From positions 233,410-265,612 of the forward strand of contig NZ_LN611423.1 in NCBI RefSeq assembly GCF_000821245.2: DNA of 32,203 bases. Reading direction: 5' to 3'. Positions 2,653-27,297 of the stretch are shown here, in pieces. Position 1 is the first letter of the stretch, and every line of letters begins with the position of its first letter. The notes under the pieces are model-generated. The model worked only from the letters and a program-made list of their open reading frames with translations, had not been told where the DNA came from and made no database searches. The position numbers and the translations under genes are program-made. This DNA is from Virgibacillus senegalensis (lineage in GTDB: Bacteria; Bacillota; Bacilli; Bacillales; Amphibacillaceae).

Positions 2653-2676
2653 ACGAAGAGCACTCTCCCGCTTTCC

Positions 2677-2862: not shown

Positions 2863-2900
2863 AGATAGATCATTCAGTTATAGGGAGTTGTGGTTTTTTG

Positions 2901-2936: not shown

Positions 2937-2946
2937 CCTGTAGTAC

Positions 2947-4290: not shown

Positions 4291-4339
4291 CATACCTCTC
4301 CTCTCAAATCCTATTTCAATTACTAATTTAGTAGAAAGA

Positions 4340-4378: not shown

Positions 4379-4493
4379 GAATTTTCAATCTATTTGCCTA
4401 CTACTTTCTTCACGGGCAACTTGAGAGGAACGGAAAGGTAAAAAGCTAAACGGTGTTTATATAATTTATTCATTATCTTGGCGACGAAGGAAT

Positions 4494-4745: not shown

Positions 4746-5124
4746 GAAGGAAATCGAAAATAAAAGCGGGTAATCTATCCATCTCAGCGATTAGTTTACG
4801 ACGAATATGTAGACCATTATGTATTTGGACTAATTATTATAAATCCTCAGAAAAAAACACCTATTAGCTTGGGTATACGGTTTTTTCTTTTTCTTGGGAG
4901 CTGTACTTTTTAAATTTCCTTCTGTTTTAGATGCTTTCTTCTACATCACATACTCCCTCTCCTTTATAAAGAAGTGCGTTTATCTTATCATATCAATTTA
5001 TTAAAGTAAAAAATTACTAATTACTATAAAAAATGGTGAAAACAAGGAAGATGTGCAGGAACAATGGTGTCAAGGCCGTTTAATTTTCTACAAAATCGGC
5101 AGGTTAAAATTATAAGCTACCGCC
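4746..5124. other. Gene-poor interval before the istB relic
   Basis: AT-rich DNA without a convincing gene. One frame on the plus strand, about 4860-5000, encodes a hydrophobic stretch (LLAWVYGFFFFLGAVLFKF) of about 45 codons. It has no start codon or ribosome binding site and is probably a remnant. Just before the istB relic, CCGCC-TTATTC-GGCGG at 5120-5135 followed by CTTTGTTTTT could form a weak terminator on the plus strand. Confidence 0.4.
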
Positions 5125-5369
5125 TTATTCGGCGGCTTTGTTTTTCATTCGAAAGCTTGGCCCTTCGACAGAAAATACTCTGGAATGATGGAGAACCGAT
5201 CTAATTGCTGTCTCAATAATTCCCTCTCCTAACACTTTTCCCCACTGGCTGAAGGTTTGTTAGACGTTAAAATGACCGAACTATTTTCATACCTTCGACT
5301 AATTACTTGAAATAAATAATGTCCTTCATTGGTTGATAGATTCAATTACCCCAATTCATCAATAATCAG
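5125..5369 (-). pseudogene. istB: IS21-family IstB C-terminal relic
   Basis: On the minus strand the conceptual translation gives the IstB Walker B segment (LIIDELG, then a stop where Tyr is expected), then STNEGHYLFQVISRRYENSS and VILTSNKP. A one-base frameshift is followed by FSQWGKVLGEGIIETAIRSV and LHHSRVFSVEGPSFRMKNK, ending at the natural stop (5125-5127). These are conserved C-terminal segments of IstB, the AAA+ helper ATPase of IS21 transposons. The N-terminal part with Walker A and any istA are absent. The relic sits immediately upstream of the cas operon, so it may mark an old mobile-element boundary. Confidence 0.8.
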
Positions 5370-5548
5370 GGTTGAGGAAACGATAATCACTATATTTGGA
5401 TTACCAATACTTTTCTCTTATAAGAAATTACCCTTATTTACCTATATTTTAGTAAATTTATCCATATTTATATATCCGATGTACAAAAGTTTTGTTACCA
5501 TAGTTATAGAATGTTTTATACTAGGTTATTTTAATGGAGGTGGATGAA

Positions 5549-7912
5549 TTGTTACTAGCTCATATTAGGAATAGTGACTATGCAGAGCAATCTGTTCAAT
5601 CGCACTTAGAAGAGGTATCTTTAATCGCACGTGAATATGGCGACTCTGTAAACTTGGGAGCTCATGCGGAATTGGCAGGACTTTTACATGATATGGGTAA
5701 ATTCACACAACACTTTACAACTTATTTACAAAATGCCGTTTTCAAAAAAGAAGTTACCAAGAAAAAAATAGACCATTCTACTGCAGGTGCCAAATACTTA
5801 TATGATCGTTATTATAATCAAAATACCTTTCAGAATTACGTGGTTGAAACAGTTGGCATGGCGATTTTATCTCACCATTCGGGATTGCAGAATTTTATAC
5901 ACCTTGACTTAAAACCCTCTGACTATTTAAGGCGGGTAACCAATGTAGAACTACCTCACTATGATGAAGTGGTTGAGAATTTTGAATCGATAGAAGGAAA
6001 TGAACAAAGAGTGAAGGCTCTTATCGAAGAGGCTACCAATGAATTTAGGGCATTCATAAAAAGTATAAAACCTTTCGCAAAACCTAATGTTTATTTGAAC
6101 TTGATGCAAAAGTTAGTGTTTAGTTGTTTGATTGATGCTGATCGGACTAATACCAGATGTTTTGAGGAAAATGAAGAAAATAACCAGTCGCCCGAAAATG
6201 AGAACGTATTCAAGGATGGGTATAAGGAGCTTATGGCCCAGGTTACAAAATGGAAACACCAACAAGTGACACAAATAAATCAATTACGCAATGATTTATC
6301 AGAAAGTTGTGACCAATTCGCTAACAAATCTTCAGCTATCTATACATTAACTATTCCAACCGGTGGTGGTAAAACCTTTGCGAGTCTCCGTTATGCACTA
6401 AAACATGCCCAAACTCATCATAAATCCCGCATTATTTATGTAGTACCCTATACAACGATACTGGAGCAAAATGCAGAAGCTGTAAGAAGAATTATTAAGC
6501 AGCCTGAAGCTGTTCTTGAGCACCATGCCAATGTAATAGACGATGATAACTTGGATGAGGAAATGGATTATTATCAAATACAGAACCACAAGAATCTCCA
6601 ATTAGGAAGAGACAATTGGGATTATCCGATTATTTTTACAACAATGGTACAATTTTTGGATGCCTTTTTTCAAAAAGGAACAAGAAAAAGCCGTCGATTA
6701 CATAATTTAACTAACTCTATTATTATCTTTGATGAAGTGCAATCTGTCCCCTATCAACACTCCGAATTATTTAATGCAGCTGTGAACTTTCTACATATTG
6801 TAGGGAACAGCAGCATTGTGTTATGCACTGCAACACAACCCGCAATAGATAAATCGAACCATCCCATTCTACTAAAAGAAAATTCAGAGATGGTACCAAA
6901 CCTTAATAGAGTAGTAGATGCGTTCAGACGGGTAACCTTCCACAATAAAGTAGAACGTGAAGGGTGGGATGTCGATCAAATAGGAAATTTTACTGAACAG
7001 ATTGTACAGAAAGTAGATTCGGTATTGATAATATTAAATACAAAAACAGTAGTAAGAAAGTTATACGAGCGTCTAGCAGAACAAGAAGAAGCTTATGTTG
7101 TCCATTTAAGTACATCTATGTGTCCCTCACATCGAAAGGAAAAGCTAGCAGAAATTAAAGGAAAACTGGGGAAAGAAAAGGTTATTTGCATTAGCACGCA
7201 GCTTATTGAAGCTGGTGTGGATATTAGCTTTGAATCTGTCATCAGGTCTCTAGCCGGCCTAGATTCAATTGCCCAGGCAGCAGGGCGTTGTAATCGAAAT
7301 AAAGAAGTAGAGATTGGAGACGTATATCTTATACGCGCAAAAGATGAACATCTTTCTAAATTACCAGAAATTCGTATTGGTGGGGAAGTAACAGAAAACT
7401 ATATTCTGTCTAATCCTCAATACGCCGAGATGTTATTAAATCCTGAAACGATTAGAACATACTTCTCACATTTTCAGGCAGAAGCCTCTCGCGAAATTTT
7501 GAGAAACCCAAAAAGGTTAGATTATGAATTAATAGATCTGCTTAATGGGTCGTTCGCAGCGAAACAAAGCCCACAGACAAAATCCACGGGAATGTTCAAA
7601 ACGATAGAACGATATTTTGAAGCCATATCTTCACCTACAACGGGTGTTCTGGTTCCATTTGGGGAAGGTAAAAATATTATTGCACGTTTAAATGAAAACA
7701 TAAACGACCATACACTATTTAATCAATTGTTAAAACAAGCCCAACAGTACAGTGTTAACCTTTATGATTATGAATTGCAAAAATTAAGTTCTGAGAATTT
7801 AGTTACACCGCTCTTTAATGAGGCAATCTTTTGTCTGAATGATAAGGCGTATCACGAACAATATGGTGTCTCGTTAGAAGGAGAAGCAACATTAGATAAC
7901 TATACCTTTTAA
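5549..7912 (+). CDS. cas3: CRISPR-associated helicase/nuclease Cas3 (type I-C)
   Basis: Single-chain HD nuclease plus superfamily 2 helicase, 787 residues, which is recruited by Cascade to unwind and degrade target DNA. The N-terminal HD domain shows H19, HD at 47-48 (LLHDMGK), H76 and HH at 109-110. Helicase motifs are TIPTGGGKT (about 268-276), DEVQ (395-398), [15 protein letters not shown] and [10 protein letters not shown] place the start at TTG 5549 because GGAGGTG (5536-5542) lies 6 bases before it. An in-frame ATG at 5534 overlaps that same ribosome binding site and is a poorer choice. It is the first gene of the cas operon; cas5 starts 13 bases after its stop. Confidence 0.95.
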
Positions 7913-7925
7913 GGAGGTGAAAATA

Positions 7926-8651
7926 ATGAGAAATCAGATTGAATTCATTGTTTATGGTAAATATGCCCTTTTCACTGACCCTACAACAAAGATTGGCGGA
8001 GAAAAATTCACGTATCAAGTACCAACATATCAAGCATTGAAAGGAATTGTGGAATCGATTTACTGGAAACCAACTATTACATGGTATGTTGATGAAGTTC
8101 GCGTGATGAATGCGATTCAAACGGAAGTAAAAGGGATTCGCCCAATAAAATATCAAAACAGTGATAATGATTTAATGTACTATACGTATTTACGTAATCC
8201 AGCGTACCAAGTCCGGGCTCATTTTGAATTTAATGAGAATAGACCAGACCTCGCCTATGACCGTAATGAACACAAGCATCATAACATCGCAATTCGCGCC
8301 ACTAAAAGAGGAGGACGAAGGGATATCTTTTTAGGAACGCGAGAATGTCAGGGATACATTGAAGCATGTTCTTTTGGGGAAGGCGAAAGTTTTTATGATC
8401 ATTACGGTGATATTAGCTTTGGACCGATGTTTCATGGATTCACCTACCCAGATGAAGGGGATCAAAAATTATTTCAAGCACGTTTATGGATGCCAACCAT
8501 GAAAAACGGGATTATTTCATTCAAGCGTCCCGAGAATTGCGAGATTGTTAGAACAATACACAAAGATAGTATGAAACACTTTAAGAAGGGAACAAATTTC
8601 ACTCCAGTTGATGAGGAGTATGAAACGATGTTTAAGGAGGTGAAGCGATGA
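7926..8651 (+). CDS. cas5c: Cas5c/Cas5d crRNA-processing endoribonuclease (type I-C)
   Basis: The 241-residue protein is the type I-C Cas5. In this subtype it replaces Cas6: it cuts the pre-crRNA at the base of the repeat hairpin and stays on the 5' handle in Cascade. Residues matching the catalytic triad described for the B. halodurans enzyme (Tyr46, Lys116, His117) are present as Y46 and K117-H118 in NEHKHHN. A Gly/Arg-rich segment ([19 protein letters not shown]) follows, typical of the family. The start at ATG 7926 follows AAGGAGGTG by 6 bases; an upstream GTG at 7917 lies inside that site. Its stop overlaps the cas8c start. Confidence 0.94.
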
Positions 8652-10564
8652 GTTGGATGCAGCAATTAGCCGATGTTTATAAACGCAATGGATCACAAGT
8701 TGGAAAATTTGAAGAACGACGGAAACAACGTATAACATTGCTCCCGGTTTCACATGTGATGCAGAGTGCTCAAATAGAGATCTTAATCACTTCAGAAGGT
8801 GAATTTAAAAATGCAAAAGTCATTGACAAAGAAAATGCACGGACGATAGTTCCGGCAACAACAGCATCGGCAAACAGGGCGAGCACCAGTGCCCCCCACT
8901 TTCTGCACGATAAATTACAATATGTCGCAGGAGATTATGTAAACTATGGAGGGGAAGCAAAACGCAAGGGACATTATAACGATTACTGTAAACAAATGAA
9001 AGACTGGGCTGAAGCAAGAAATGCTCCTAAAAAAGTTAAAGCAATCTATTCGTATATTTCAAAGGGAACCCTAATACAAGATTTAGTTAACGAAAAAGTT
9101 CTTCCTATGGATGACAATAATAAAGTGATTGACAAATGGACTGCAAACAAAAAAGAAGAAAAGCCAAAAATCTATAAAGCAGTATCGGAAGGCGCTCTTT
9201 CAGCTTTTGTAAGATTTGATGTATTACATGAATCTCCGGATGACCCTGCTGTATGGGAAGATCATATATTGTTTAATAACTTTATAGATTTCCTAGAAAA
9301 TTCACATGATCAGAAACAAGGTTATTGTTATGTGACAGGGAAACAAACAACCTTAACGACTCAACATGGATCTCGCATTCGTAATGCTGGTGATATGGCC
9401 AAATTAATCTCAGCAAATGATCACTCTGGGTATACATTCCGTGGCCGTTTTGCTGAGGCGACAGAAGCTGTACAAATTGGCTACAATGTGTCACAAAAAG
9501 CACACCATGCGCTAAGATGGCTGATTCAAAGACAAGGAACATACATTGATTCACGCTACTTTGTCTCTTTTGGTTTAGAACAGCCTGATGTACTTGATCC
9601 TTTTGACAACACAAAAGAATTAATGAAAGATGATATTTTTGCTCAAGATTTACTGGCTTTAAGTAAAGAACAAGTTTTAACAGAAGACGTAGTAGGTGAA
9701 GAGCTGAACAAAGCCTTACATGGAATGAAACATAATTTAGAAAAAGAAAATCTCAAAAATGTAGTAGTTATAGCACTTGACGCAGCAACCAAAGGAAGAT
9801 TAGCCATCGTCTATTACCAACAGCTTAGTGCTGATTTATTTTATAATGCCATCATAAAATGGCATATGACGTGTCGCTGGATTCAAAGTTATAAAGAAGA
9901 AGGTACAAATGTCACAAAATCATATGTTGGAACCCCATCTACGTTCCGAATAGCCGAAGCAGTTTATGGCAGTAAAGCAGATAGCCGAGCCAAAAAAGAT
10001 TTATATACACGGCTACTTCCATGTATCATCGAACAAAAACCGCTTCCCAAAGATATTGTACGGATGATCTATAATCGCGTTAAAAATCCGTTTAGTTTTA
10101 CCAATTCTAATGATTCTTGGCAGGCAACACTCCATATTGCATGTGCACTCATTAATAAACAATATGAAAGTGAGGGATACACAGTGGCATTACAAGAAGA
10201 CAATCATTCACGTGATTATTTATTTGGTCGTTTGCTTGGTATTGCAGAAGTTATGGAAAAAAGAGTTCTTGAAAAACGTGATGATAAAAGAGCTACCAAT
10301 GCAACCCGTTATTTTAATGCTTTTTCACAGCATCCAGCTCGGACTTGGATGATTATTCGCAAACAGTTGGCGCCATATTTTGAAAATTCAAGTGATAATA
10401 CGAGTTACTACGCAATGCTTTTACAACAAGTTGAAAACAAATTAAATACTGAACAAATGACCGATGATTCTCTCAAACCGATATTTTTACTTGGCTACAG
10501 TAGCCAAATTCAAAACATGTATACGAAAAAGGAGGATAATAAAAATGACAACATTGAATCATAA
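8648..10564 (+). CDS. cas8c: Cas8c/Csd1 large subunit of type I-C Cascade
   Basis: The 638-residue protein has the length and position of Cas8c (Csd1), the large Cascade subunit that recognises the PAM and helps open the target duplex. Recognisable segments include the N-terminal [26 protein letters not shown] (about residue 226), a [13 protein letters not shown] stretch and a C-terminal helical region ([15 protein letters not shown]) corresponding to the small subunit. Its ATG overlaps the cas5 stop and follows AAGGAGGTG. Its last 20 bases overlap cas7. A plausible internal start for Cas11c is annotated separately. Confidence 0.93.
10184..10564 (+). CDS. cas11c: Putative Cas11c small subunit from an internal start in cas8c
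   Basis: Type I-C systems are known to make a separate small subunit, Cas11c, from an internal start near the 3' end of cas8c. Here an in-frame GTG at 10184-10186 lies 7 bases after GAGGG within cas8c (codon 513). It would give a 126-residue helical protein beginning near the conserved [15 protein letters not shown] segment, which is the expected size and place. The start is an inference from spacing; another in-frame candidate is the Met in the [10 protein letters not shown] segment, which has a weaker site. Several copies of Cas11c would line the Cascade belly alongside Cas7. Confidence 0.5.
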   Translation: MALQEDNHSRDYLFGRLLGIAEVMEKRVLEKRDDKRATNATRYFNAFSQHPARTWMIIRKQLAPYFENSSDNTSYYAMLLQQVENKLNTEQMTDDSLKPIFLLGYSSQIQNMYTKKEDNKNDNIES

Positions 10565-11420
10565 GATTGATTTCGCAGTTGTATTTACAGTCGATAAAGC
10601 TAATCCCAATGGTGACCCACTCAACGGTAACAGACCTCGTCAGGATTTTCATGGACATGGAGAGGTATCAGATGTAGCTCTTAAAAGAAAAATAAGAAAT
10701 CGTCTGCAGGATGAGGGAGAATCAATACTTGTGCAGTCAGACGAAAGACGATCGGATGAATTTCGTAGCATTAAAGATCGCGTTGATTCTGTGGACGAAC
10801 TGAAAAAGCTACTAACAAAATCTAAAACAACTGGTACTGATGAGCAAACAGCTGAAATGATTGCCAGTAACACCTGGTATGATGTGCGTGCTTTTGGACA
10901 AGTCTTTGCCTTTAAAGGAACCAAGATGTCTATAGGCATAAGAGGGCCAGTATCAGTACACACTGCAACAAGTATTGAACCTGTCGATATATCAAGTATG
11001 CAAATAACAAAAAGTGCTAATTCCATAACTAACGAGAAAGATCCCGGTCAAAAAACATCAGATACAATGGGAACTAAACACCGAGTCGATTTTGGAGTCT
11101 ATGTCTTCTATGGCAGTATCAATCCACAACTCGCTGAACAAACAGGATTTACATATGAAGATGCTAAAAAACTTAAAGAAGCTTTAAAAACACTTTTCGC
11201 GAATGATGCGTCTTCTGCAAGACCTGATGGCAGTATGGAGGTAAACAAAGTTTTTTGGTGGGAGCATAATTCGAAGTTGGGTCAATATTCTTCTGCTGCT
11301 GTACATCGCACAGTAAATGTGAAACGAGTTAAAAATGATTTACCTCAGTCTATTCAAAATTATAAAATTACTGCAAATAAATTAGATGGATTGGCTGTCG
11401 AGGAATATGACGGACTATAA
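10545..11420 (+). CDS. cas7c: Cas7c/Csd2 backbone subunit of type I-C Cascade
   Basis: The 291-residue protein is the RAMP-type backbone that polymerises along the crRNA. The N-terminus has the family pattern VVFTVDKANPNGDPLNGNRP, and the middle contains WYDVRAFGQVFAF and IRGPVSVH, characteristic of Csd2. The ATG at 10545 follows AAAGGAGG by 9 bases, which excludes the longer reading frame starting at 10464. It overlaps cas8c by 20 bases and cas4 by 14 bases, so translational coupling is likely. Confidence 0.94.
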   Translation: MTTLNHKIDFAVVFTVDKANPNGDPLNGNRPRQDFHGHGEVSDVALKRKIRNRLQDEGESILVQSDERRSDEFRSIKDRVDSVDELKKLLTKSKTTGTDEQTAEMIASNTWYDVRAFGQVFAFKGTKMSIGIRGPVSVHTATSIEPVDISSMQITKSANSITNEKDPGQKTSDTMGTKHRVDFGVYVFYGSINPQLAEQTGFTYEDAKKLKEALKTLFANDASSARPDGSMEVNKVFWWEHNSKLGQYSSAAVHRTVNVKRVKNDLPQSIQNYKITANKLDGLAVEEYDGL

Positions 11421-12066
11421 AGAAGATGAATATCTATTACTTTCAGGCATTCAGCATTTTGTCTTCTGTAAGAGACAATGGGCATTGATTCATATTGAAC
11501 AAGAGTGGAAAGAAAATGTACTAACAGTGGAAGGTAATTACCTTCACGAAAAGGCAGATAATCCTTTTATACGAGAAAAAAGAGGAGAAACCATTTATGT
11601 CCGTGCTTTACCAGTCCATTCAAGAGAATTGGGTATCAGCGGTGTATGCGATATGGTTGAATTCATTCAAGATAAGGATGGTATTCCACTCGATCAAGAA
11701 GAAAATCTTTATCGTGCAAAACCAATAGAGTATAAACGTGGAAAGCCAAAAAAACATGATGCTGATATTTTACAATTAGTCGCACAGGTTATATGTCTAG
11801 AGGAAATGCTAGCCACCACTATTCATGAAGCAGCGCTTTTCTATAATGAAACAAAACGTCGTGAAAATTTTATGATCAACGAGGATATGAAGAGACGCGT
11901 CGTAAAAATGGTACAAGAAATGCATCATTATTATCATAGAAGATACACTCCTCGCGTAAAAACAGGGAAACATTGTTTACGCTGCTCTCTGCATAATTTA
12001 TGTTTACCAAAGTTATTAGAAAGAGAAAAAGTATCTACGTATATGAATAGGATGTTGACAGATTGA
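11407..12066 (+). CDS. cas4: Cas4 RecB-like iron-sulfur nuclease
   Basis: The 219-residue protein is the adaptation-associated Cas4 that trims prespacers and selects PAM-containing ends with Cas1-Cas2. Iron-sulfur cysteines are C21 (FCKRQW) and the C-terminal trio C190, C193 and C199 (KHCLRCSLHNLC). RecB-type nuclease residues are H47, D82 (GVCDMVEF), E108 and K110 (IEYKRGK). I used ATG 11407 because GAGGA lies just before it, though spacing is short; ATG 11386 is possible but lacks a site. The gene overlaps cas7 by 14 bases and its TGA overlaps the TTG start of cas1. Confidence 0.93.
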   Translation: MTDYKEDEYLLLSGIQHFVFCKRQWALIHIEQEWKENVLTVEGNYLHEKADNPFIREKRGETIYVRALPVHSRELGISGVCDMVEFIQDKDGIPLDQEENLYRAKPIEYKRGKPKKHDADILQLVAQVICLEEMLATTIHEAALFYNETKRRENFMINEDMKRRVVKMVQEMHHYYHRRYTPRVKTGKHCLRCSLHNLCLPKLLEREKVSTYMNRMLTD

Positions 12067-13094
12067 AACAATTATTAAACACCGTTTATGTCTCTGAACC
12101 TGATATGTATTTGGCTTTAAAAGGGAAAAATATCAACCTGATGAAAGATAATAAGTCTATTGCACGTATTCCACTTCATAACATCGAAGCAATATCTACT
12201 TTTGGACACCAGGGTGCAAGCCCTGCACTAATGAGTGAGTGTATGGAGCAAAACATAAGCTTAACTTTTTTCACAAACAGTGGACGCTTCCGGGGTCGGC
12301 TAACTGGTAAAATAAATGGCAATGTTACATTAAGAAAAAAACAGTATCGTGTTTCAGATCATGAAGAGGAAAGCACTAAAATTGCTAAACATTTCATTGT
12401 AGGGAAAATCTTTAATAGTGAACAATTGCTGAAAAGAACAACTAGAGACCATGCTTTAAGGGTTGATGTCAATCGTATCAATCAAATAGTGAATAGATTA
12501 CATGATTCTAGAAAAGAGGCTTTAAGCTGCAATAATTTAGATGAACTACGTGGTATTGAGGGAAATGCAGCAAATGCTTATTACAGTGTATTTGATGAAT
12601 GCATTTTACATCAAAAAGATATATTTTTCTTTCGCGAACGTACTCGCAGGCCTCCCTTGAATCCTGTAAATGCTTTGCTATCTTTTGCCTATTCTTTACT
12701 TGCATCAGAATCGGCTGCAGCACTTGAAGGAGTTGGGCTGGATTCTTACGTAGGGTTTCTACATCGTGACAAACCAGGCAGAACATCATTGGCGTTAGAT
12801 TTAATGGAGGAATTACGTTCAACCATAGCCGATAAGTTTGTTTTGAAGATAATCAATCGTAAACAGATAAACAGTAAAGACTTTGTTACTAAAGAAAATA
12901 AGGCAGTAATCCTTACAGATGAAGCCCGCCGTAATTTTTTACAGCTTTGGCAAAAGGAAAAGCAGTTAGAAATCACCCATCCCTACTTAAAAGAAAAAGT
13001 ATCTTGGGGATTAATCCCCCATATCCAGGCGTTATTATTGGCTCGCTTTCTACGCGGAGACCTTGAGGCATATCCCCCTATTTTAGTAAGGTAG
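12063..13094 (+). CDS. cas1: Cas1 integrase (type I-C)
   Basis: The 343-residue protein is the CRISPR integrase that inserts new spacers at the leader end. Catalytic residues are visible as E166 (RGIEGNAANAYY), H234 (VGFLHRDKPGR) and acidic D246 in SLALDLMEELR. The conserved RRPPLNPVNALLSFAYSLL stretch lies at about 195-213. Translation probably begins at TTG 12063, overlapping the cas4 stop as TTGA; AGGA lies 10 bases upstream, and the product starts MKQLLNTVYV as expected for the family. cas2 follows after 10 bases. Confidence 0.94.
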   Translation: MKQLLNTVYVSEPDMYLALKGKNINLMKDNKSIARIPLHNIEAISTFGHQGASPALMSECMEQNISLTFFTNSGRFRGRLTGKINGNVTLRKKQYRVSDHEEESTKIAKHFIVGKIFNSEQLLKRTTRDHALRVDVNRINQIVNRLHDSRKEALSCNNLDELRGIEGNAANAYYSVFDECILHQKDIFFFRERTRRPPLNPVNALLSFAYSLLASESAAALEGVGLDSYVGFLHRDKPGRTSLALDLMEELRSTIADKFVLKIINRKQINSKDFVTKENKAVILTDEARRNFLQLWQKEKQLEITHPYLKEKVSWGLIPHIQALLLARFLRGDLEAYPPILVR

Positions 13095-13104
13095 GTGTTA
13101 AAAA

Positions 13105-13395
13105 ATGTTAGTATTAATCACATACGATGTGCAAACATCTTCTGAAAGCGGGAAAAAACGTTTGCGAAAAGTTGCCAAAAAGTGTGAGGAATATGGTGTT
13201 CGTGTACAAAACTCTGTATTTGAGTGCATAGTTGATAGTACCCAACTAAAACAACTGCAAATTGCACTTGAAGAAATTATAGACCCCTCAGTTGATAGTT
13301 TGCGTTATTACCGACTAGGTAATAATCATGATACTAAAGTGAAACATATGGGTGCTAAACCGGCAATTAAAGTCGATAAACCTTTAATTTTTTAG
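13105..13395 (+). CDS. cas2: Cas2 adaptation protein
   Basis: The 96-residue ferredoxin-fold protein forms the dimer at the centre of the Cas1-Cas2 integrase. The N-terminus MLVLITYDVQT has the conserved Asp of the family, followed by RLRKVAKKCEEYGVRVQNSVFE, a near-diagnostic Cas2 segment, and RYYRLGN. TAGGTG precedes the ATG. It is the last cas gene; the CRISPR leader begins directly after its stop. Confidence 0.95.
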   Translation: MLVLITYDVQTSSESGKKRLRKVAKKCEEYGVRVQNSVFECIVDSTQLKQLQIALEEIIDPSVDSLRYYRLGNNHDTKVKHMGAKPAIKVDKPLIF

Positions 13396-13553
13396 CTGCG
13401 AACCTTAAGTGAACATAATAATACCGGGGGGTTCGCGTGAAATATTGGTGGTTCACCTCTCATAAAAGTTTAAATAAACATGTGATAATTCTATTAACAA
13501 GAAGAAAAATCAATATATAGTATTATATTCGATACGTATACCTATATCTCGCT
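13396..13553 (+). promoter_or_regulatory. CRISPR leader
   Basis: AT-rich 158-base stretch between cas2 and the first repeat. It starts with a perfect 7-base inverted repeat, GCGAACC (13398-13404) and GGTTCGC (13430-13436), with a G-rich run before the second arm. I recall a similar element from other type I-C leaders. Toward the repeats, TTAACA and TAGTAT spaced by 18 bases could be a promoter, but this is weak. The leader lies on the cas2 side, and the degenerate repeats are at the opposite end, which fits the expected polarity. Confidence 0.75.
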
Positions 13554-16500
13554 GTCGCTCCCTAGATTGGGAGCGTGGATTGAAATTCCAGGTTAGGACT
13601 CACTGTTTCCCCTCCTAAGTCGCTCCCTAGATTGGGAGCGTGGATTGAAATTTGTTTTGCTGTTAATTTAGCCATTTATGTCATCAGTCGCTCCCTAGAT
13701 TGGGAGCGTGGATTGAAATAGAACATAACCAGCATGCTTTTCCATTGATTGCAGGTCGCTCCCTAGATTGGGAGCGTGGATTGAAATAGTTTTTCGGCAG
13801 CTGCCTGTTGCAATCCGGGTGTCGCTCCCTAGATTGGGAGCGTGGATTGAAATAGGCCGGTATATTGCATCAACTCATATTTTGCAAAGTCGCTCCCTAG
13901 ATTGGGAGCGTGGATTGAAATATCGTGCGCGAAGAAACGGACATCGACAAAATCGTCGCTCCCTAGATTGGGAGCGTGGATTGAAATAATGACATCGTTC
14001 ATTTGCTCGCCCTCCGTTTTGTGTCGCTCCCTAGATTGGGAGCGTGGATTGAAATCCTCGGTCCATTTAAATCCACGTGGATGCATGATGTCGCTCCCTA
14101 GATTGGGAGCGTGGATTGAAATAAACATTATCAGAAATGGAAAGCCAACAAGACCAAGGTCGCTCCCTAGATTGGGAGCGTGGATTGAAATCAAATTTTA
14201 AAGCTATTGCCTTCATGCGTGTATGTCGCTCCCTAGATTGGGAGCGTGGATTGAAATCATATCAAGCCCTGGTTCTTTTCAAAGCACTCCGGTCGCTCCC
14301 TAGATTGGGAGCGTGGATTGAAATCACGTCTTGGCCACAATAAGATTTGTATTTTTCCGTCGCTCCCTAGATTGGGAGCGTGGATTGAAATTAGCCATCA
14401 GCTGTTAACGGCAAGCCTTCCGCCCGTCGCTCCCTAGATTGGGAGCGTGGATTGAAATAAAACTTTCACCAGTCCGTCTGGTCGTACTTAACCGTCGCTC
14501 CCTAGATTGGGAGCGTGGATTGAAATAGTGCGTCGGAACAATCAACATCCAACTTTATGGTGTCGCTCCCTAGATTGGGAGCGTGGATTGAAATCGTGAT
14601 GGAATAGGCCCGGTTGAAGGCACCGACCAGTCGCTCCCTAGATTGGGAGCGTGGATTGAAATAACATATCGAAGAAGGGTTGATTGATACGGTCCTGTCG
14701 CTCCCTAGATTGGGAGCGTGGATTGAAATTTCAAGTCGATTTGTCCGTCGTGTCCGATGATGATGTCGCTCCCTAGATTGGGAGCGTGGATTGAAATAAT
14801 GCAAGACAATTCGCATTCGCGGCGACCGAAAGTCGCTCCCTAGATTGGGAGCGTGGATTGAAATTCCTCTACGGTGCCTGGCGTATATCCAATCGACCGT
14901 CGCTCCCTAGATTGGGAGCGTGGATTGAAATGAACACCTACGGGAACACGGTTGGACCGCAACCATGTCGCTCCCTAGATTGGGAGCGTGGATTGAAATT
15001 GCCAAGTCCAACTTCCAAACCTTGAATCTGGAGTCGCTCCCTAGATTGGGAGCGTGGATTGAAATTCTTAGAGAATACACCGGTCTGAAAGACATTGAAG
15101 TCGCTCCCTAGATTGGGAGCGTGGATTGAAATTCTACTCTTAATTTCCAAATCTCTGCCAACCGCTGTCGCTCCCTAGATTGGGAGCGTGGATTGAAATG
15201 AGTATCTTTTGTTTGTCTTCCGCCTGCTGAACTAGTCGCTCCCTAGATTGGGAGCGTGGATTGAAATTCTTATTTGCTTGTAGAGGACTTCCTGAACGTC
15301 CGTCGCTCCCTAGATTGGGAGCGTGGATTGAAATTTCGCAGTGAGTACGAAATCATCGAGCGCCCGGGTCGCTCCCTAGATTGGGAGCGTGGATTGAAAT
15401 GTGCCTCAACCGCTTCTCTTAACACAGCCATTAAGTCGCTCCCTAGATTGGGAGCGTGGATTGAAATCTCGTTGCTGCTGTACCACTCGCTTAGCCAAGC
15501 GAGTCGCTCCCTAGATTGGGAGCGTGGATTGAAATTGGCGTTGTCGAAAACCCTTCCGCCGATAATACAGTCGCTCCCTAGATTGGGAGCGTGGATTGAA
15601 ATCGGAGTCATCCGTTAAATGGCTATCCTATCGAGTCGCTCCCTAGATTGGGAGCGTGGATTGAAATCTTCTGTGATGAATGGTATCTCCGCCGTCCCGT
15701 TGTCGCTCCCTAGATTGGGAGCGTGGATTGAAATCTGATGCATTTTTCGAGGGGGATGACACTTTTAGTCGCTCCCTAGATTGGGAGCGTGGATTGAAAT
15801 GAAGTCCTTTGCTGTCTCTTCTCTTCCGTACTTGTCGCTCCCTAGATTGGGAGCGTGGATTGAAATAATGATCGAGGTGGTCGAAGGATTTACCAAACCG
15901 TCGCTCCCTAGATTGGGAGCGTGGATTGAAATACATAGCTTTGAAATTGATTCAAGTGCCAGGGCTGGTCGCTCCCTAGATTGGGAGCGTGGATTGAAAT
16001 AAATATCATGTCGATCAGTTCTTCATCCCGTTCGTCGCTCCCTAGATTGGGAGCGTGGATTGAAATAGCCGGGCTACACGCCAAGTGACGAACAACAGAC
16101 GGTCGCTCCCTAGATTGGGAGCGTGGATTGAAATAATAAGGATTACACATTAATAGGAGACGCTTTTACGTCGCTCCCTAGATTGGGAGCGTGGATTGAA
16201 ATGGTACTAAAGAAGGCAATCGTCGACTTACAGCCGGTCGCTCCCTAGATTGGGAGCGTGGATTGAAATTCTGTGATTTGGTTCAACAAGTAGGTATCAA
16301 AATCGTCGCTCCCTAGATTGGGAGCGTGGATTGAAATATCCTTTGCTAAGCACACCGAAATAAGTTATACGTCGCTCCCTAGATTGGGAGCGTGGATTGA
16401 AATATTATGAATCATACACCAACAATCACATCATCCCGTCGCTCCCTAGATTGGGAGCGTGGATTGAAATAGCTTTGCGATGGACATATTTCGTCAACTG

Positions 16501-17143
16501 TCTGACGTCGCTCCCTAGATTGGGAGCGTGGATTGAAATAAGTCGTTGGCGTGGCGAATCAAAACCATTGTCGTCGCTCCCTAGATTGGGAGCGTGGATT
16601 GAAATAATTTAAAAAGTTTTCCAAGAAGCAGCTGAAAGTGTCGCTCCCTAGATTGGGAGCGTGGATTGAAATAAATTAGTAAAATTAAATATCAAATACA
16701 ATACGGGTCGCTCCCTAGATTGGGAGCGTGGATTGAAATCGTGAAAGGTAATCCGTTTCACTTTTGCGCGATCGGTCGCTCCCTAGATTGGGAGCGTGGA
16801 TTGAAATTAAAGCGGATGTATTGATTACACCAAATAGCAAGTCGCTCCCTAGATTGGGAGCGTGGATTGAAATGGGAGCCATGACAATCGGTTTTGGCGG
16901 TTTGGGGTCGCTCCCTAGATTGGGAGCGTGGATTGAAATGTAAGCCAATCCATTATGCCACCCCACTCATGGCATGTCGCTCCCTAGATTGGGAGCGTGG
17001 ATTGAAATAGCCATGTCATTTAAGGCATCATCTGCTTCCGACAGTCGCTCCCTAGATTGGGAGCGTGGATTGAAATAATTCCATCCCTCCTATTGTTCAG
17101 CTCGAAACGAGTCGCTCCCTAGATTGGGAGCGTGGATTGAAAT

Positions 17144-17185
17144 TTGCAGCCCTGGCGCTTTCTCTCGGTTCTCTCGGTTCTCTCG
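17144..17185 (+). repeat. Spacer 54, enlarged to 42 bases by a tandem 9-mer
   Basis: This spacer is 6-10 bases longer than all others. Its end consists of three perfect copies of TTCTCTCGG (17160-17168, 17169-17177, 17178-17186); the final G is the first base of the next repeat. Removing one unit would give 33 bases, inside the normal range. It may reflect slippage in the array or a repeat already present in the captured DNA. Confidence 0.85.
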
Positions 17186-17319
17186 GTCGCTCCCTAGATT
17201 GGGAGCGTGGATTGAAATAGCGGAAAGCAGGTGTCGAAGACGACGGTATCTACGTCGCTCCCTAGATTGGGAGCGTGGATTGAAATACCAGCTGTATATC
17301 GCTGGTTTTGGTATCATCG

Positions 17320-17601
17320 GTCGCTCTCCCTAGATTGGGAGCGTGGATTGAAATACTGTAGGAGAACAGGATGACGACGGAGAATGGACGTCGCTCCCTA
17401 GATTGGGAGCGTGGATTGAAATCGCACTGTTAACCGTGAATAGTTGGCATAAACAGTCGCTCCCCAGATTGGGAGCGTGGATTGAAATATCAAGGGCGAT
17501 TTCTTTGTGCTTGATGATGCCCAGTCGCTCCCTAGATTGGGTGCGTGGATTGAGATACAGGGCCTTTTGCAAAGTCCCTGCCTACATTATGTCGCTCCCT
17601 A
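17320..17601 (+). repeat. Degenerate distal repeats of the array
   Basis: The last repeats depart from the consensus. Repeat 57 (17320-17354) is 35 bases with a CT insertion that bulges the stem. Repeat 58 is normal. Repeat 59 (17456-17488) has one loop change. Repeat 60 (17524-17556) has GGGTGCG in place of GGGAGCG, breaking a stem pair, and AGAT in place of AAAT in the handle. Repeat 61 is only GTCGCTCCCTA. Decay at the leader-distal end is expected for the oldest repeats, but the abrupt cut in repeat 61 points to a rearrangement. Confidence 0.9.
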
Positions 17602-17770
17602 TCGGCCAACCCACCCATGCCGGAAATCAGTAGATTCGTTGTCTCTATCAAGGAGAGACCGGTCAGCAGTCCGGCTACCTCAGCAGCTACAATAATGGCA
17701 AATATGACATTCACCCGCATTAAACTCAATGCAATGAGAACAAGAACTGAAATAATAACAACCCATTCCA

Positions 17771-17771
<1 letters not shown>
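17601..17771 (-). pseudogene. Truncated amino-acid/Na+ antiporter-like transporter gene (N-terminal stub)
   Basis: The ATG at 17769-17771 overlaps the hutG stop (TAATG) and follows GGGGGAAGG. About 55 codons are transporter-like: MEWVVIISVLVLIALSLMRV, then VNVIFAIIVAAEVAGLLTGL and ending GMGG, with two hydrophobic segments. Bacterial antiporters of the YuiF/NhaC type have this kind of N-terminus, and a permease after hutG would fit histidine uptake, but the family call is by eye. After GMGG the frame runs into the CRISPR array, reading LADRER and then repeat-derived codons to a stop at 17532. The rest of the gene is missing. Confidence 0.65.
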
Positions 17772-21717
<3,946 letters not shown>

Positions 21718-21731
21718 TACCATCTCTCCCT

Positions 21732-23258
21732 TTATATGAATTGTTTTTCTTTACTTACTGGATGTAAAATCGAATCCCAATTTTCTTGTTTCATCCATAA
21801 TGCAACAGACTCAATATCTTTTGAAAAGGCACGGTCCTTTGTTATGGATTGGACAATCTCGCGCCCTTTCCGGTATATCCTCTGTGTTCGTGGAGCCATG
21901 TGTTGGACACCCCGAAACTCTGAAGCCTGCAATGCACAGATCATTTCGATTGCAACAACTCTTCTTGTATTAGTAATGATTTGCATAGCGTGTCTGGCCG
22001 CGATCGTTCCCATGCTGACGTGGTCTTCCTGGTTAGCTGATGACGGAATCGAGTCGACGCTGGCTGGATGTGCAAGTGTTTTGTTTTCAGACACGAGGGA
22101 AGCCGCACTGTATTGCATGATCATCGCTCCAGATTCCAGCCCCGGCTTGGCGCTTAAAAACGCCGGCAAATCGTTTAACTGAGGATTGACTAGCCGTTCA
22201 ATACGGCGTTCCGAAATGTTGGCAAGCTCGGCAACTGCAATCCCTAAAAAGTCCATGGCCAATGCAATCGGCTGGCCGTGAAAATTGCCGCCTGAGATGA
22301 TTTTCTGGCCGCCTTCAAAAATGAGTGGGTTGTCTGTGGCCGCATTGATTTCGATTTCAAGCTTATCTTTTACATAGTTAAGGGTTTGCCAAGTCGCGCC
22401 ATGCACCTGAGGAATACAGCGTAGTGAATAAGCATCCTGGACCCGGATTTCCCCTTGCCTGGTAATAAGATTGCTTCCATCAAGATATCGACGCATCCGG
22501 GCTGCCACGTCAACTTGTTCCGGGTACCCTCTTGCGAAATGGATATCTTCGTCAAACGCATCAATGATTCCGCGTAACCCTTCCATCGTCACGGAAGCAG
22601 TCGCTTCGGTTTGTAGTGCGAGTTTTTCCGCTTCCAAATAAGAAACGACTCCCACCGCTGTCATGGCTTGCGTACCATTGATTAGAGCCAGGCCTTCTTT
22701 CGCGGTTAATGTAATCGGCGTAAGTCCGACATTGCCAAAAGCTTTCATTGTCGGCATTCTCTCACCTTTATAAAACACTTCCCCTTCCCCGATTAAAACC
22801 AATGCCAAATGAGAAAGGGGAGCAAGGTCACCGCTGGCTCCAAGTGAACCTTGTTGGGGAACAACGGGATGAACATGCTCATTCAGTAAGGCTAACAATT
22901 TTTCTATCAGTTGTTTTCTTACACCCGAATATCCCTTCAGAAGCGCATTCGCCCTAAGCAATACCATGGCACGGCTGACGATTTCGGGAAACGGTTCGCC
23001 GACACCGCAGGTATGGCTGCGAATCAAATTCAATTGCAGTTCTTCGACATCTCCTTTTTCGATTAGTACGTCACTCATCTTTCCGAATCCGGTGTTGATT
23101 CCGTAAACGGTTTTTCCTTCGTTGACTACATTCTCTACCGCTTGGCGGCTTTTGCTGACACATTCCCAGCTCTCCTTTGAAGCCTGCACTTTTTCCTGAT
23201 CATACAACACGTGTTTGACATCATCTAACGTTAATGAATGTCCTTCCAATGTAATCAT
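21732..23258 (-). CDS. hutH: Histidine ammonia-lyase
   Basis: The 508-residue enzyme removes ammonia from L-histidine to form urocanate, the committed step. The self-forming MIO cofactor comes from A141-S142-G143 in [17 protein letters not shown]. Catalytic Y53 lies in the [10 protein letters not shown] motif, and LINGTQAM and [11 protein letters not shown] are also typical. ATG 23258 follows AAAGGAG by 6 bases. It is preceded by the HutP-controlled attenuator, so expression depends on histidine. Confidence 0.96.
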
Positions 23259-23295
23259 TTTATGCTCCTTTCCTCTACCGTAATAAAGTGGATAT

Positions 23296-23342
23296 AAAAA
23301 GGGGCTGTACCGAAGAAAATTTGATTTCTTCGGTACAGCCCC
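23296..23342 (-). terminator. Attenuator terminator between hutP and hutH
   Basis: A perfect 18-base inverted repeat (23301-23318 and 23325-23342, arms beginning GGGGCTGTACCG, loop of 6) is followed on the minus strand by TTTTTATATC. It sits between hutP and hutH, where HutP antitermination is known to act in B. subtilis. Without histidine-bound HutP it should stop transcription before hutH. Confidence 0.9.
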
Positions 23343-23366
23343 CTATTCGCTAATATCTATGGGCTA
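23343..23366 (-). promoter_or_regulatory. HutP-binding UAG array
   Basis: Just after the hutP stop, the mRNA would contain four UAG triplets, each separated by exactly four bases (complements CTA at 23364-23366, 23357-23359, 23350-23352 and 23343-23345). HutP bound to histidine and Mg2+ recognises UAG triplets with four-base spacing. The last triplet abuts the terminator stem, so bound HutP could block the stem from forming. Confidence 0.85.
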
Positions 23367-23368
23367 CA

Positions 23369-23821
23369 TTATATGTGATTGATTCCCAATCCAATGGTTT
23401 CGTGCTCCAATCCCTTGACAGGAGCACCAATCGTTCCATAAAGCGCAATGGCCAACCATTCGCCTTCTTCTTCATTGTCGTACGGATTTCCCCGCACAAG
23501 CGCGAATCTTAATCCGACCGTCCGTAATATTGTACCCAACTGGACTTGCCCGCGGGTCACACCGTGAAGCGCTTCGATGGTCGCATGGTACAAGGCGTGC
23601 AATTCCCTGTAAAGATCGGCCTTGATAATACCGTTTCTTTTCGCCGCTGTTTCGATAGCTGCAACGACCTTATGTGAATCCATCGAACCTACTTTCCCTG
23701 TACAAAACTGCCACTTTTGACGCTCAATTTGCTTATTAAACTCAGGATCGTTTTCAAATTGTTCATTTAATACCAACAACATCGCCTGCTTGCCAATTCT
23801 TCGGTCAACTTGTAACAGCAA
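23369..23821 (-). CDS. hutP: HutP antiterminator of the hut operon
   Basis: The 150-residue protein is the hexameric RNA-binding antiterminator that responds to L-histidine and Mg2+. Its sequence matches HutP nearly throughout: [36 protein letters not shown] (with metal/histidine-binding His residues), [16 protein letters not shown] and the C-terminal [19 protein letters not shown]. Length is close to the 148-residue B. subtilis protein. Translation begins at TTG 23821 ([10 protein letters not shown]), which aligns with the known N-terminus; GAGAG lies upstream. It is the first gene of the operon. Confidence 0.95.
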
Positions 23822-23860: not shown

Positions 23861-23889
23861 ATTGTAATCGCTTACATAAATGATGTCAA
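23861..23889 (-). promoter_or_regulatory. hut operon sigma-A promoter with overlapping cre box
   Basis: On the minus strand TTGACA (23884-23889) and TACAAT (23861-23866) are separated by 17 bases. Between and overlapping the -10 is TGTAAGCGATTACA (23863-23876), a perfect match to the CcpA target TGWAANCGNTNWCA. Binding there would block the promoter, so the operon should be repressed by preferred carbon sources. Confidence 0.88.
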
Positions 23890-24444
23890 AGTATTTTTTG
23901 AAAATTTTGTTGATTGACTCGGCTTTGTCTTCTAGTTGACTCTCGTCAATCCGGGGCGGAGCAATCAATAAATTCCCCCTCCTGATCTAACGAAAGCTCA
24001 CTTATATTTTCTCGAATTCTGAATCAGGGATATCCTTTACATTTGCCCACTGTCAAACCAGCGTCACTATATTTAAAAGTTGTATAAGATGGCCCGTATC
24101 TAAATGAATAACGTACTGATAGATCAGCTGTTTCAAAGTATCTATAACCGATGAATAACCCTTCCTTATATCACTTGTTACTTGATCTGCAGGATAGAAT
24201 GCCAAGAAAGGCACCTGAGTAATAACTATTGAGAAGGTTTCGCTTAATTACCACTCCTATTGTGTTTACCAAGAAAAGCATCAACGGCAGCTTTACTAAA
24301 ACATGAGGAAGTTTTTTAGTATCCAGTCACCAAAAAGATCACCTAGATTTCAGAATAACAGAAATGGATCTTGAACCATTTCGGCTAATGCATTTAAAAT
24401 ATTGGGTTCACAAACTAGAAGTAGTTGCTAATGCTGGGGCTTTA
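23890..24444. other. Gene-poor interval upstream of the hut operon
   Basis: No convincing gene. A minus-strand frame at about 24053-24247 stays open for about 64 codons (including [15 protein letters not shown]) but has no start codon or ribosome binding site. A plus-strand frame at about 24310-24472 is also open (MDLEPFRLMHLKYWVHKLE) and runs into the hepT end on the other strand. I recognise neither; both look like decayed coding DNA. Confidence 0.4.
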
Positions 24445-24834
24445 TCATTTACTTTTCATCCGTTCGACCCATAGATGGAGTAGGTTATTATACCGGGGAA
24501 GATTTTTGTGGATTTTAATGGCCACTTCTTCATTATAGGTATGGACGGTCAAATTTCGATCATTTACCATTTCCAAAGCCAGAACGGCCTCTTCATCCTC
24601 TAACAAATCAACCTCCCTGCAGCTGCGAATGACGCTCTTCGGAGAGCCGGCATCCACTCCTTCTACGTCATACAAGTATTGCTTAGCCGCTTTCCAACTA
24701 GCCTCGAAAGAGAATTCAAATCGTTGAATCCCTGCATCTCGTTCCACGTCGTTCGGGTTGTTAAGGTTAGCTAGCTTTTCAAAGGCAGCCAACGCTTTTT
24801 CTGCTGCTTCTAATCGTTGACGTAATCTTTCCAT
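24445..24834 (-). CDS. hepT: HepT-like HEPN toxin (HI0074 family)
   Basis: The 129-residue helical protein is of the HEPN / nucleotidyltransferase-substrate-binding type. It carries RNLTVHTY near residues 93-100, which is exactly the RX4HXY motif of HepT toxins: Arg and His are the RNase active site, and the Tyr is modified with AMP by the antitoxin. It begins inside the end of the upstream gene (25-base overlap), the usual arrangement for the pair. Whether it is an active RNase cannot be told from the sequence. Confidence 0.82.
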   Translation of the reverse strand: MERLRQRLEAAEKALAAFEKLANLNNPNDVERDAGIQRFEFSFEASWKAAKQYLYDVEGVDAGSPKSVIRSCREVDLLEDEEAVLALEMVNDRNLTVHTYNEEVAIKIHKNLPRYNNLLHLWVERMKSK

Positions 24835-25133
24835 AAAATCCCCTCCTCTTTTACTTGTTGGACCAAAGCTTCATTGGCATCACGCAAATCCACTACATCT
24901 ACCTTGTAAGGAATGGTAGACTCTTCTATTTGCTCGATTAGTTCAATCCATTTAAAAGGAGAGAGTGGGATGTCGGATTCGATAGCAATGTCGATATCCG
25001 AACTCTGTTTTTCTTCCTGTCGGGCCCAGGAGCCAAATAAGTAAATATGCACTTTTTCCTTGGCGAGTTGTTCATTCAAAATCGATTTTAGTTGTTCTAA
25101 AATTTGTTCCCTTAATTCTGCAGGAACTCCCAT
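24810..25133 (-). CDS. mntA: MntA-like minimal nucleotidyltransferase antitoxin (HI0073 family)
   Basis: The 107-residue protein has GSWARQEEKQSSDID, exactly the GSX10DXD motif of minimal nucleotidyltransferases. MntA proteins AMPylate and so neutralise HepT in type VII toxin-antitoxin systems. The start is ATG 25133, preceded by GAGGAAGGG; an upstream ATG at 25160 has no site and overlaps the promoter -10. It precedes and overlaps hepT by 25 bases, which ties their expression together. Confidence 0.82.
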   Translation of the reverse strand: MGVPAELREQILEQLKSILNEQLAKEKVHIYLFGSWARQEEKQSSDIDIAIESDIPLSPFKWIELIEQIEESTIPYKVDVVDLRDANEALVQQVKEEGILWKDYVND

Positions 25134-25158
25134 AATATCCCTTCCTCTTTTTTGTCCC

Positions 25159-25167
25159 ATTATAGCA
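25159..25167 (-). promoter_or_regulatory. Extended -10 promoter of the HepT/MntA pair
   Basis: On the minus strand TGCTATAAT has a consensus -10 (25159-25164) with a TGn extension, 25 bases before the mntA start. No good -35 is seen at 17 bases (GTATAA). Upstream, TGGTC and GACCA around 25222-25240 form a short inverted repeat that could be an operator, which is speculative. Confidence 0.5.
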
Positions 25168-25374
25168 TATGTACATTTTACTTATACGGAGTTTCCTGCT
25201 CCTCTTCCCTGATTAATAATGTGGTCGTACAATGACCATTATCACTACACCAAAACCAAACGTGGATTGCATTATATTGGGCTATTAAAATGAAACTCTG
25301 TAAGGTTAAATATATTTAAGGGGCTATTACCTTGAAATTCACTCTTAATTTTTTAATACTCATTTCTTCCGCTT

Positions 25375-27297
25375 TCAAAATAATTTCATCTGCTGCCCAC
25401 TGCTGCTCTTTTCATCATCGCTTCCTTTGATCTTGTAATTCATCGACTTATACCCCTGCTTACGTTTTTCATACATAGTCTGCAACTCGGGAACCTGATA
25501 ATCAACATAATCATATACTTTTACAACATTCTTATTCGTATGAACACGATGCAACCTACCGACATATTGTTGGAGCGTTCCTTTCCAGGCGATTGGCATG
25601 GCAAGGAATAAAGTGTCCAGTCTAGCATTGTCAAATCCTTCTCCGATATACTTACCAGTGGCAATAATAAGCCTCTCTTCACAATCTGAGAGATTTTCTA
25701 TTAGCTTTAATCTATCTTTCTCTTCTTGCTTACTCAGCTTACCCGTTAATACGATGATATTCTTAGCAAAGCCTTCAAAGTGCTTTTCCAATTCATGCAC
25801 ATGTTCAATCCGCTCAGTCAAAATAATTGGGTGCGAATCATTCTCAAGTTCTTTCAATACATCATTGAATATCAGCTTGTTCCGTTTTTCATTAATAGCC
25901 AGGTTTGCATACACCTTTTGAAGATTTCCGTCACTTTTGAAGCTAGTAAAACGTGGAATAAGCACATGGTCAAACGGATGGAGTTTTGACTGATCTTTGG
26001 CGGTAACCTTATAACAGATTTCCCCGCACTGCATTGCAACTATCTTATGAAGCCCATCTTTTCTAGTTGGTGTTGCAGTTAGTCCATGAACGTAAGAAGC
26101 CTCTACTTCCCTTAGTACTTTTTCAAAACTTACCGCTGAAATATGGTGGCATTCATCGACAATGACTTGTCCATATCCCTTAACTCTTTCACGCACATCT
26201 TCTGATCTGCTCAAAGTCTGAATCATAGCAATATCCACTTTACCTGTTGGTTTCTTTTTACCCCCACCAATTTGACCAATCTTGTTACCGTCCAAATTAA
26301 TAAACGTCTGCAAACTTTCTTTCCACTGGGAAAGCAGTTGCTTCGTGTGCACGATGATTAATGTGTTGATGTTTCTCTCCGCTATTAGCGCTGCTACTAC
26401 GACAGTTTTACCAAAACCAGTTGCCGCTGATAGGACGCCACAACCACTTACCTTCATAGCATAGACCGCTTCATTTTGTTTTGGCAGAAGATTCCCTTGA
26501 AAATGAAAATTGTGGCCGCTTCCTTTGTAGGTTTGATCATCGATGTAGAAGTTGATCTCGTGCTTGGATAATATAGCTTTTATATCTGTCAGACAGCCGC
26601 GCGGGATAACCACCGAGCCCTCCGTCTCATAACTGCAGTCAATTTTTCTAGGAATACGGTGTGTTGACAGCCTTTTAGATTGGGCTTTAAAAAATTCAGG
26701 GTTATCGATGACGGCGAGGTTTATTAGCTCGTTCAAAATATTTGATGGAAGCTTATTTTTGGAAATATGTATGCCATTTTTTCTTATGATGGTGATTTCA
26801 AAGGGTTTATTCCTATCATATACTGCTGGTTCACTTTTTATAGTACACCCGCTAGGATTAATCTGCTTTGCCAGAATTGATTCAATCGCTTTTTTACTGA
26901 TTCTTTTTACGGACGCCAGATAAGTCCATTGATCAGTATATGGTTCAAATTTTTCATTAACAAAGACACTGTGGCTGTTTTTCCTGGGGAATTGTTGTAA
27001 AGGTAGTGCAATCAAGTTGCCAAATCCACCTTTAGGCATTGTATCCTGATTGGGAAAAAATCGATCAAATGAATCAACCCCTGTCTCATACCATTTTTCC
27101 AAGGTCCGGTTCATAAGAAGTGCCCCTAATTTACGGGCTGTTTTCGCCTCTATTTTGTCACTGAAAAAAATCCAGACATGGCAACCATCTCCGGATCGGG
27201 AAATTTCCATGCTTGCAGGTACACCTATATCGTTACAAACACTAAGGAAAGTGAGAGCATCCTTTTGCCATTCTTTTTTATCAAAATCAACGGCCAA
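25375..27297 (-). pseudogene. TOTE-type primase-helicase, 5'-truncated
   Basis: 640 codons remain. Residues 1-135 match an archaeo-eukaryotic primase domain: VDFD (metal-binding Asp pair at 4 and 6), SRSGDGCHVWIFF (H40) and DRFFPNQDTMPKGGFGN. Residues 270-600 are a superfamily 2 helicase: Walker A ATGFGKT (292-298), DECHH (381-385), TATP (407-410), GEGFDNA and QYVGRLHR. TOTE conflict-system proteins join these domains. The frame is open only to about 27350 and has no ATG or ribosome binding site; it opens at DETCWFLAVDF, which in full-length relatives is internal. About 100 or more N-terminal residues, and any TOTE nuclease gene, are missing. It may be inactive, although catalytic motifs are intact. 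Confidence 0.72.

Follow-up and report, generated by a model that had tools for sequence, protein, structure and literature searches.

The stretch analysed here (the window) is a single gap-free contig of 32,203 bases lying between scaffold gaps (G000, C5:233410-265612) in the genome of a salt-loving bacterium that groups with Sediminibacillus. We compared it with four congeners (G001, G002, G003 and G004, among them S. halophilus, G001 with locus L074, and S. terrae, G003 with locus L075); the genus sample therefore comprises five species-level genomes, host included, and the host species is represented by one strain. The congener loci L073, L074 and L075 were aligned to the window by blastn. 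The features relevant to this study are the following.

271-1008, minus strand: nucleotidyltransferase-like gene of the conserved left flank, 89-91% identical to L074/L075, with a weak NTP_transf_2 match below the Pfam cut-off
1147-2652, plus strand: hpaB-like 4-hydroxyphenylacetate 3-hydroxylase gene of the conserved left flank (PF11794/PF03241)
2653-17599, no strand: lineage-specific island of 14.9 kb, in place of 1,494 bp in S. terrae or 1,763 bp in S. halophilus
2757-2819, plus strand: scrap similar to the C-terminal end of a tyrosine integrase gene, 84-87% DNA identity over 63 bp to pieces of L074 and L135
2947-4362, minus strand: alkaline phosphatase gene on the island (PF00245)
5148-5366, minus strand, edges approximate: decayed IS21-type istB fragment, stops present, of which a stop-free piece matches PF01695 (7.5e-9)
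5534-13395, plus strand: type I-C cas operon (cas3, cas5c, cas8c, cas7c, cas4, cas1, cas2, all open)
13554-17556, plus strand: CRISPR array of 60 full repeats from repeat scans, its leader side adjoining cas2
17591-17601, plus strand: truncated repeat 61 of 11 nt, its TA at 17600-17601 common to the transporter side
17600-17771, minus strand: transporter stub, 57 of 439 codons; the frame continues to 17532 as a 79-aa fusion
17771-18784, minus strand: hutG, formimidoylglutamase (TIGR01227)
18723-23821, minus strand: rest of the hut cluster (ORFs conserved in L073-L075), which we take to be hutI, hutU, hutH and hutP from order and sequence
23299-23344, minus strand: 20-bp stem with a T tail between hutP and hutH (-38.6 kcal/mol, z -9.4), presumably an attenuator of HutP type
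23861-23889, minus strand: hut promoter-like site TTGACA-17-TACAAT, also in S. terrae

Both ends of the contig are repeated across the adjoining gaps. Window positions 1-1332 repeat the end of the preceding contig (C5:232077-233408) at 100% across a single N, and the 334 bases at 31870-32203 recur at C5:267073-267406 after a gap of 1,460 N. Both repeats are probably false assembly duplications, including the second nucleotidyltransferase gene that they create.

The initial annotation had the array break off inside a transporter gene, and this proved correct to the base. Eleven bases of repeat 61 remain, homology to the transporter begins at 17600, and the array thus runs directly into codon 57 of a YuiF-like Na_H_antiport_2 gene, with only the TA at 17600-17601 (2 bp) shared by repeat and transporter. 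The minus-strand frame starting at 17771, whose start codon overlaps the hutG stop codon by a single base, encodes 57 transporter residues (PF13726 Na_H_antiport_2, E about 1e-11), and the last 22 of its 79 residues are read out of CRISPR DNA up to a stop at 17532 inside repeat 60. It had also been proposed that this short frame is what remains of the start of a transporter gene overlapping hutG, and the PF13726 match and the 439-aa orthologues bear this out. Aligning the hut locus with relatives, as had been suggested, recovered an intact 439-aa ORF directly after hutG in three of the four congeners (G001, G003, G004), to which the stub is 95-96% identical; G002 has only a more distant homologue. 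In a stub search covering 61 genomes of the genus, family and order, own genome included, no relative with the short frame as a complete gene was found. Most of the transporter has indeed been removed: 382 of the 439 codons, about 87% of the gene, are gone, and what is left is a remnant whose first 57 residues match the family rather than a full-length membrane protein.

A search of the host genome with the full-length S. terrae protein returned, apart from the stub, a single full-length paralogue (C5:58798-60093, 64% identical) and two weak matches, and no detached 3' part of the gene. Since G001, G003 and G004 also carry a second, more distant homologue, the host paralogue is probably not a new copy, and it may buffer the lost transport. 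For this reason the suggestion that the cell had perhaps lost histidine uptake is not supported as originally worded. YuiF, we assume, belongs to PF13726, and the stub resembles YuiF-type permeases in matching that family; the host copy differs from them in being the last gene of a hut cluster, and broken. A role of the transporter in histidine uptake is plausible from its operon position. In HisR regulons of Bacillales, a published study (PMC9413887) classes YuiF as a putative permease for the uptake of histidine. Transporter and hutG were found linked at 3 of 30 transporter loci (1.5-kb flanks) and at 2 of 41 hutG loci, all from Sediminibacillus; we therefore rejected this linkage as a family-wide rule, as it was confined to that genus among the loci checked. 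We likewise considered relaxed selection on the stub, which shows four lineage-specific codon changes in 57 (2 synonymous, 2 non-synonymous) against 7 synonymous and 4 non-synonymous ones in the 337 codons of hutG, and these are too few to conclude.

On both sides of the CRISPR-Cas locus, the host sequence is conserved in the congeners. From 17600 to about 23936, some 6.3 kb, the window aligns unbroken by blastn to the hut cluster of three congeners at 96-97%. On the other side, homology to L074 and L075 ends at 2652, the stop codon of the hpaB-like gene, and window positions 1187-2652 and 271-1050 align at 87-91% to the genes lying just beyond the transporter in S. halophilus and S. terrae. 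In these two species the order is transporter, then hpaB-like and nucleotidyltransferase genes; in the window the latter two stand on the far side of the cas locus, and the left flank further out is also syntenic with the congeners. The insert is thus absent from relatives that keep its flanks, as in a genomic island. The ancestral segment that it replaces comprises the intergenic region and the final 382 codons of the transporter, and no match to this segment was found anywhere in the window (E up to 0.1).

Besides the cas operon and the array, the island holds the phosphatase gene and the integrase and IS21 scraps. The other copies of the alkaline phosphatase in the genus, own genome included, are 42-46% identical to it. 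The integrase scrap corresponds to the last 20 or so residues of a 63-aa frame in L135, itself a fragment, which matches PF00589 (4.1e-9) through residues 1-45, and hence to a part downstream of the matching region. Integrase-related and transposase-related DNA on the island amounts to this 63-bp scrap and the istB fragment, in place of a complete integrase with attachment sites; at the island ends we noticed neither an attachment site nor a duplicated target, and the window holds no tRNA. GC content gives weak support for a foreign origin: the cas genes stand at 36.9% against 46.7% for hut, yet a low value (40.5%) is found in the conserved left flank as well. Three pieces of 63-168 bp in the left part of the island (2757-2819, 4539-4706, 4949-5037) match the hutP side of the S. 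halophilus cluster (L074 3001-3714). Part of the island's left side is thus not foreign to the genus, and it looks as if DNA has passed from one flank of the hut cluster to the other.

Two of these pieces, 4539-4706 and 4949-5037, are 87.5% and 78% identical to L074 3365-3714, beside hutP. Integrase-like scraps of 35-63 bp lie beside hut in three Sediminibacillus genomes, on either side of it (2757-2819 here, L074 3001-3061, L073 10733-10767), and in another genus (G093) such a scrap stands between a related I-C array and groEL (L135 11746-11937). The hut and groEL flanks look like integration hotspots.

The CRISPR-Cas locus itself is of an ordinary kind. Cas8c/Csd1 is identified by TIGR01863 (354 bits, cut-off 218.65), PADLOC assigns Cas5c, Cas7c and Cas3c, as expected of type I-C, and the adaptation genes cas4, cas1 and cas2 are present. 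Type I-C systems have no separate Cas6, and here the seven plus-strand cas ORFs follow one another with no room for a further gene. The repeat unit of the array is GTCGCTCCCTAGATTGGGAGCGTGGATTGAAAT, with its first copy from 13554 (direct reading and repeat scans). The locus shares the order cas3-cas5c-cas8c-cas7c-cas4-cas1-cas2, the palindromic repeat and the leader beside cas2 with other Bacillaceae type I-C loci, and differs from them only in its position, with the trailer end abutting a broken host gene.

Within the genus, Cas8c was found in one of the five genomes, the host alone, and in none of the other four. It is also patchy in the family, occurring in 26 of 159 genomes and 16 of 46 genera surveyed. 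Its nearest relatives are 75-79% identical, the two nearest, from outside the genus, 78-79%. These two genomes, which belong to another genus, align to the cas operon and leader over 5529/5535-13560 with 81-83% DNA identity, and beyond this stretch only short pieces match.

One of the 60 spacers, spacer 28, matches a phage-like locus of a congener at 97%. Since the array holds a match of this kind, part of it probably grew after arrival, and the insert need not have measured 14.9 kb on entry. In detail, spacer 28 (15401-15434) and L148 1501-1534 in G002 are identical in 33 of 34 bases; from its ORFs, L148 is phage-like in our reading. The 5' flank of the match in L148 ends in TAC, which differs from the TTC motif of type I-C systems. 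Spacer 54 (17144-17185, 42 nt) holds a short tandem repeat. A search of phage records gave a single piecewise match of 68% in an unannotated record, which we discarded. Self-targeting as the cause was also considered and rejected. When the 60 spacers were compared with the retrieved loci, the matches besides the array were that of spacer 28 in L148 and others of chance length (14-17 nt); in the five genus genomes the array matched itself, its first repeat, G002 (through spacer 28) and, in G003, 31 bases overlapping a repeat end (E 0.026).

Considering these results, the junction is very probably the scar left at the right-hand end of a type I-C CRISPR-Cas island that was acquired horizontally. 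The ancestral layout would have been that of S. halophilus and S. terrae, with hutG, transporter and terminator followed by a convergent hpaB-like gene, and the island now stands in place of everything between the stop codon of the latter and codon 57 of the transporter. Gain in the host lineage rather than loss in the others is the most economical reading; with five species-level genomes and one host strain, the choice between one gain and several losses rests on parsimony. Since the joint lies within the last repeat and shares only 2 bp, it was probably made by illegitimate end joining and not by a transposon or integrase. The single deletion put forward in the initial annotation fits the transporter, which was deleted, and does not give the whole history, as the cas locus and array were inserted between the transporter and the hpaB-like gene. 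Because these two are neighbours in two congeners in which no Cas8c was found, the history needs a single replacement or else an insertion combined with a deletion, and array and transporter may have been cut either on insertion or later.

In the two-step version of this explanation, the island landed between the transporter and hpaB, and a later deletion took the distal array together with most of the transporter. The breakpoint lies inside both a repeat and a gene, as a random deletion would leave it, and the break may be young, as the stub frame is still open and only four of its 57 codons have changed in this lineage alone. Against two steps, no remnant of the ancestral intergenic DNA or of its hairpin was found on the island's left side, which slightly favours a single replacement, and the last repeats are changed in the manner usual near a natural trailer end, suggesting that little of the array is missing. 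However, intergenic DNA diverges fast here, with 84.6% identity between G001 and G003 in that stretch. We give the two-step version somewhat less than an even chance. By contrast, it is very unlikely that the joint is an assembly error linking unrelated stretches. The region is repetitive and there are faults nearby, in the form of the 1,332-bp false duplication across the left gap and the 334-bp one across the right gap; on the other hand, the joint sits inside a gap-free contig, its overlap of only 2 bp, with 11 nt of repeat, is too short to be explained by a repeat collapse, a search of the genome, which is 99.8% complete, did not find the missing part of the transporter, and the synteny on both sides fits one locus.

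A Cas3-driven deletion, in which the array would have targeted its own neighbourhood and the survivors would have lost the target together with the spacer, seems to us less credible still. Self-targeting type I systems can make large deletions, but the 60 spacers gave only chance-length matches to the lost segment of S. terrae and S. halophilus (at most 13 nt, the longest with a mismatch), the array had no other match in its own genome (E up to 0.05), and the guilty spacer could only be among lost ones. Least credible of all is a functional small gene, for which one might cite a frame open for 79 aa and a start codon overlapping the hutG stop: all three orthologues next to hutG have 439 aa, the last 22 residues derive from CRISPR DNA, and the stub makes up 13% of the protein.

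The truncated repeat raises the further question of whether spacers were lost, since the initial annotation had postulated an originally longer array. We compared the array ends of the 26 genomes with Cas8c after removing the host, leaving out G074, whose contig ends there, and setting aside G093, G012, G169 and G120 (runs of N at the end), which left 20. By our own rule, the last repeat is 3'-truncated or decayed in 11 of these 20 (G021 and G086 being weak cases), full with substitutions in four, and intact in five. G137 is among the intact ones by the mechanical rule, but may be followed by a stretch that resembles a decayed repeat. Eight array ends retain an exact 5' prefix, 12-26 nt long. 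The same 3' truncation or decay of terminal CRISPR repeats in general is described in a review (PMC8047081). The host array resembles such naturally truncated ends in that the 3' part of the last repeat is lost, and differs from them in that it is cut at the very point where a neighbouring gene is broken too. Within the array, repeat 57 (17320-17354) is 35 nt long with a 2-nt insertion, and repeats 59 and 60 carry one and two substitutions, respectively, relative to the consensus. As such ends are common in related I-C arrays, the truncated repeat 61 is by itself no proof of spacer loss, and with 11 of 20 related ends truncated or decayed and repeats 57, 59 and 60 deviating, we have no positive evidence that old spacers disappeared. 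What is missing may be no more than the trailer and 22 bases at the end of the last repeat. A cut last repeat should therefore be taken with caution as a sign of lost spacers, given how frequent such ends are among the related arrays compared.

Another consequence of the replacement concerns the end of the hut operon. In S. terrae and S. halophilus, a hairpin with an 11-bp stem and a T run follows the transporter (L075 12014-12046, L074 11534-11566). For the stretch in S. terrae, folding gave -18.3 kcal/mol (z -4.4), and none of 200 shuffles was as stable. Our terminator scan allows loops of up to 8 and missed this hairpin, whose loop is larger; it was checked by pattern and folding. Overall, the scan gave no excess over shuffled sequence (12 vs 11.9 in the window, 5 vs 8.9 in L075), its minus-strand matches within the array are the repeat palindromes, and the scans for promoter-like sites also return about the same number as shuffles. 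We read the hairpin after the transporter as the predicted terminator of the hut operon. It is present in both congeners that keep the intergenic region and lies in the segment lost from the host; the exact pattern is absent from the window and from G004. In G004, the hpaB-like and nucleotidyltransferase genes are missing at this place and other DNA follows the transporter. Since G004 has neither hpaB here nor the hairpin, instability is a general feature of this region, and this counts against the acquired-island reading.

The hut promoter-like site and the strong hutP-hutH hairpin are intact in the host. The latter is the same in S. terrae, and L073 and L074 match it exactly in the left arm only; a long hairpin at this position is what one finds in HutP-regulated hut operons, and the action of HutP here is putative. 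Since the operon has lost its terminator-like hairpin, antisense read-through is to be expected, and the hut transcript may run past the stub and antisense into the array. There is precedent for such transcription in S. agalactiae, where more than 70% of 138 genes with antisense RNA had it attributed to terminator read-through (PMC4448216). A bolder proposal, built on the sequence and to our mind improbable, is that histidine-induced, HutP-controlled hut transcription would cross the 60-spacer array antisense while pre-crRNA would leave the trailer-less array antisense into hutG, each inhibiting or modulating the other at the RNA level. If true, a metabolic operon would be wired to immune memory through the loss of the hut terminator. 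In the open-access papers searched, judged by title and abstract, we found no paper on such a hut-CRISPR arrangement.

We regard the locus as a real but fairly ordinary genome scar with an ordinary CRISPR system, the possible read-through being its most interesting consequence. It offers an example of a CRISPR-Cas module settling at the expense of a metabolic gene and its terminator, and a natural case for measuring read-through transcription that passes, in antisense, from an inducible operon to a CRISPR array.

The hut block has a second sharp boundary upstream of hutP, where the alignments to all three congeners stop at almost the same point, a few bases apart (23934-23937). A recent import of the block was considered, given 96-97% identity for hut against 87-91% for the left flank, but G001 and G003 show 95.8% vs 91.1% between themselves, and the idea was dropped. 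On the hutP side, 24445-27297 holds a HepT-like/nucleotidyltransferase pair. A primase-helicase gene there has an AEP-TOTE domain that begins only after the first 89 profile positions, and is possibly 5'-truncated. In S. halophilus, a Drt3b-type defence reverse transcriptase lies on the hutP side of the hut cluster (L074 849-2867), and defence genes are therefore found around the hut locus in more than one species.
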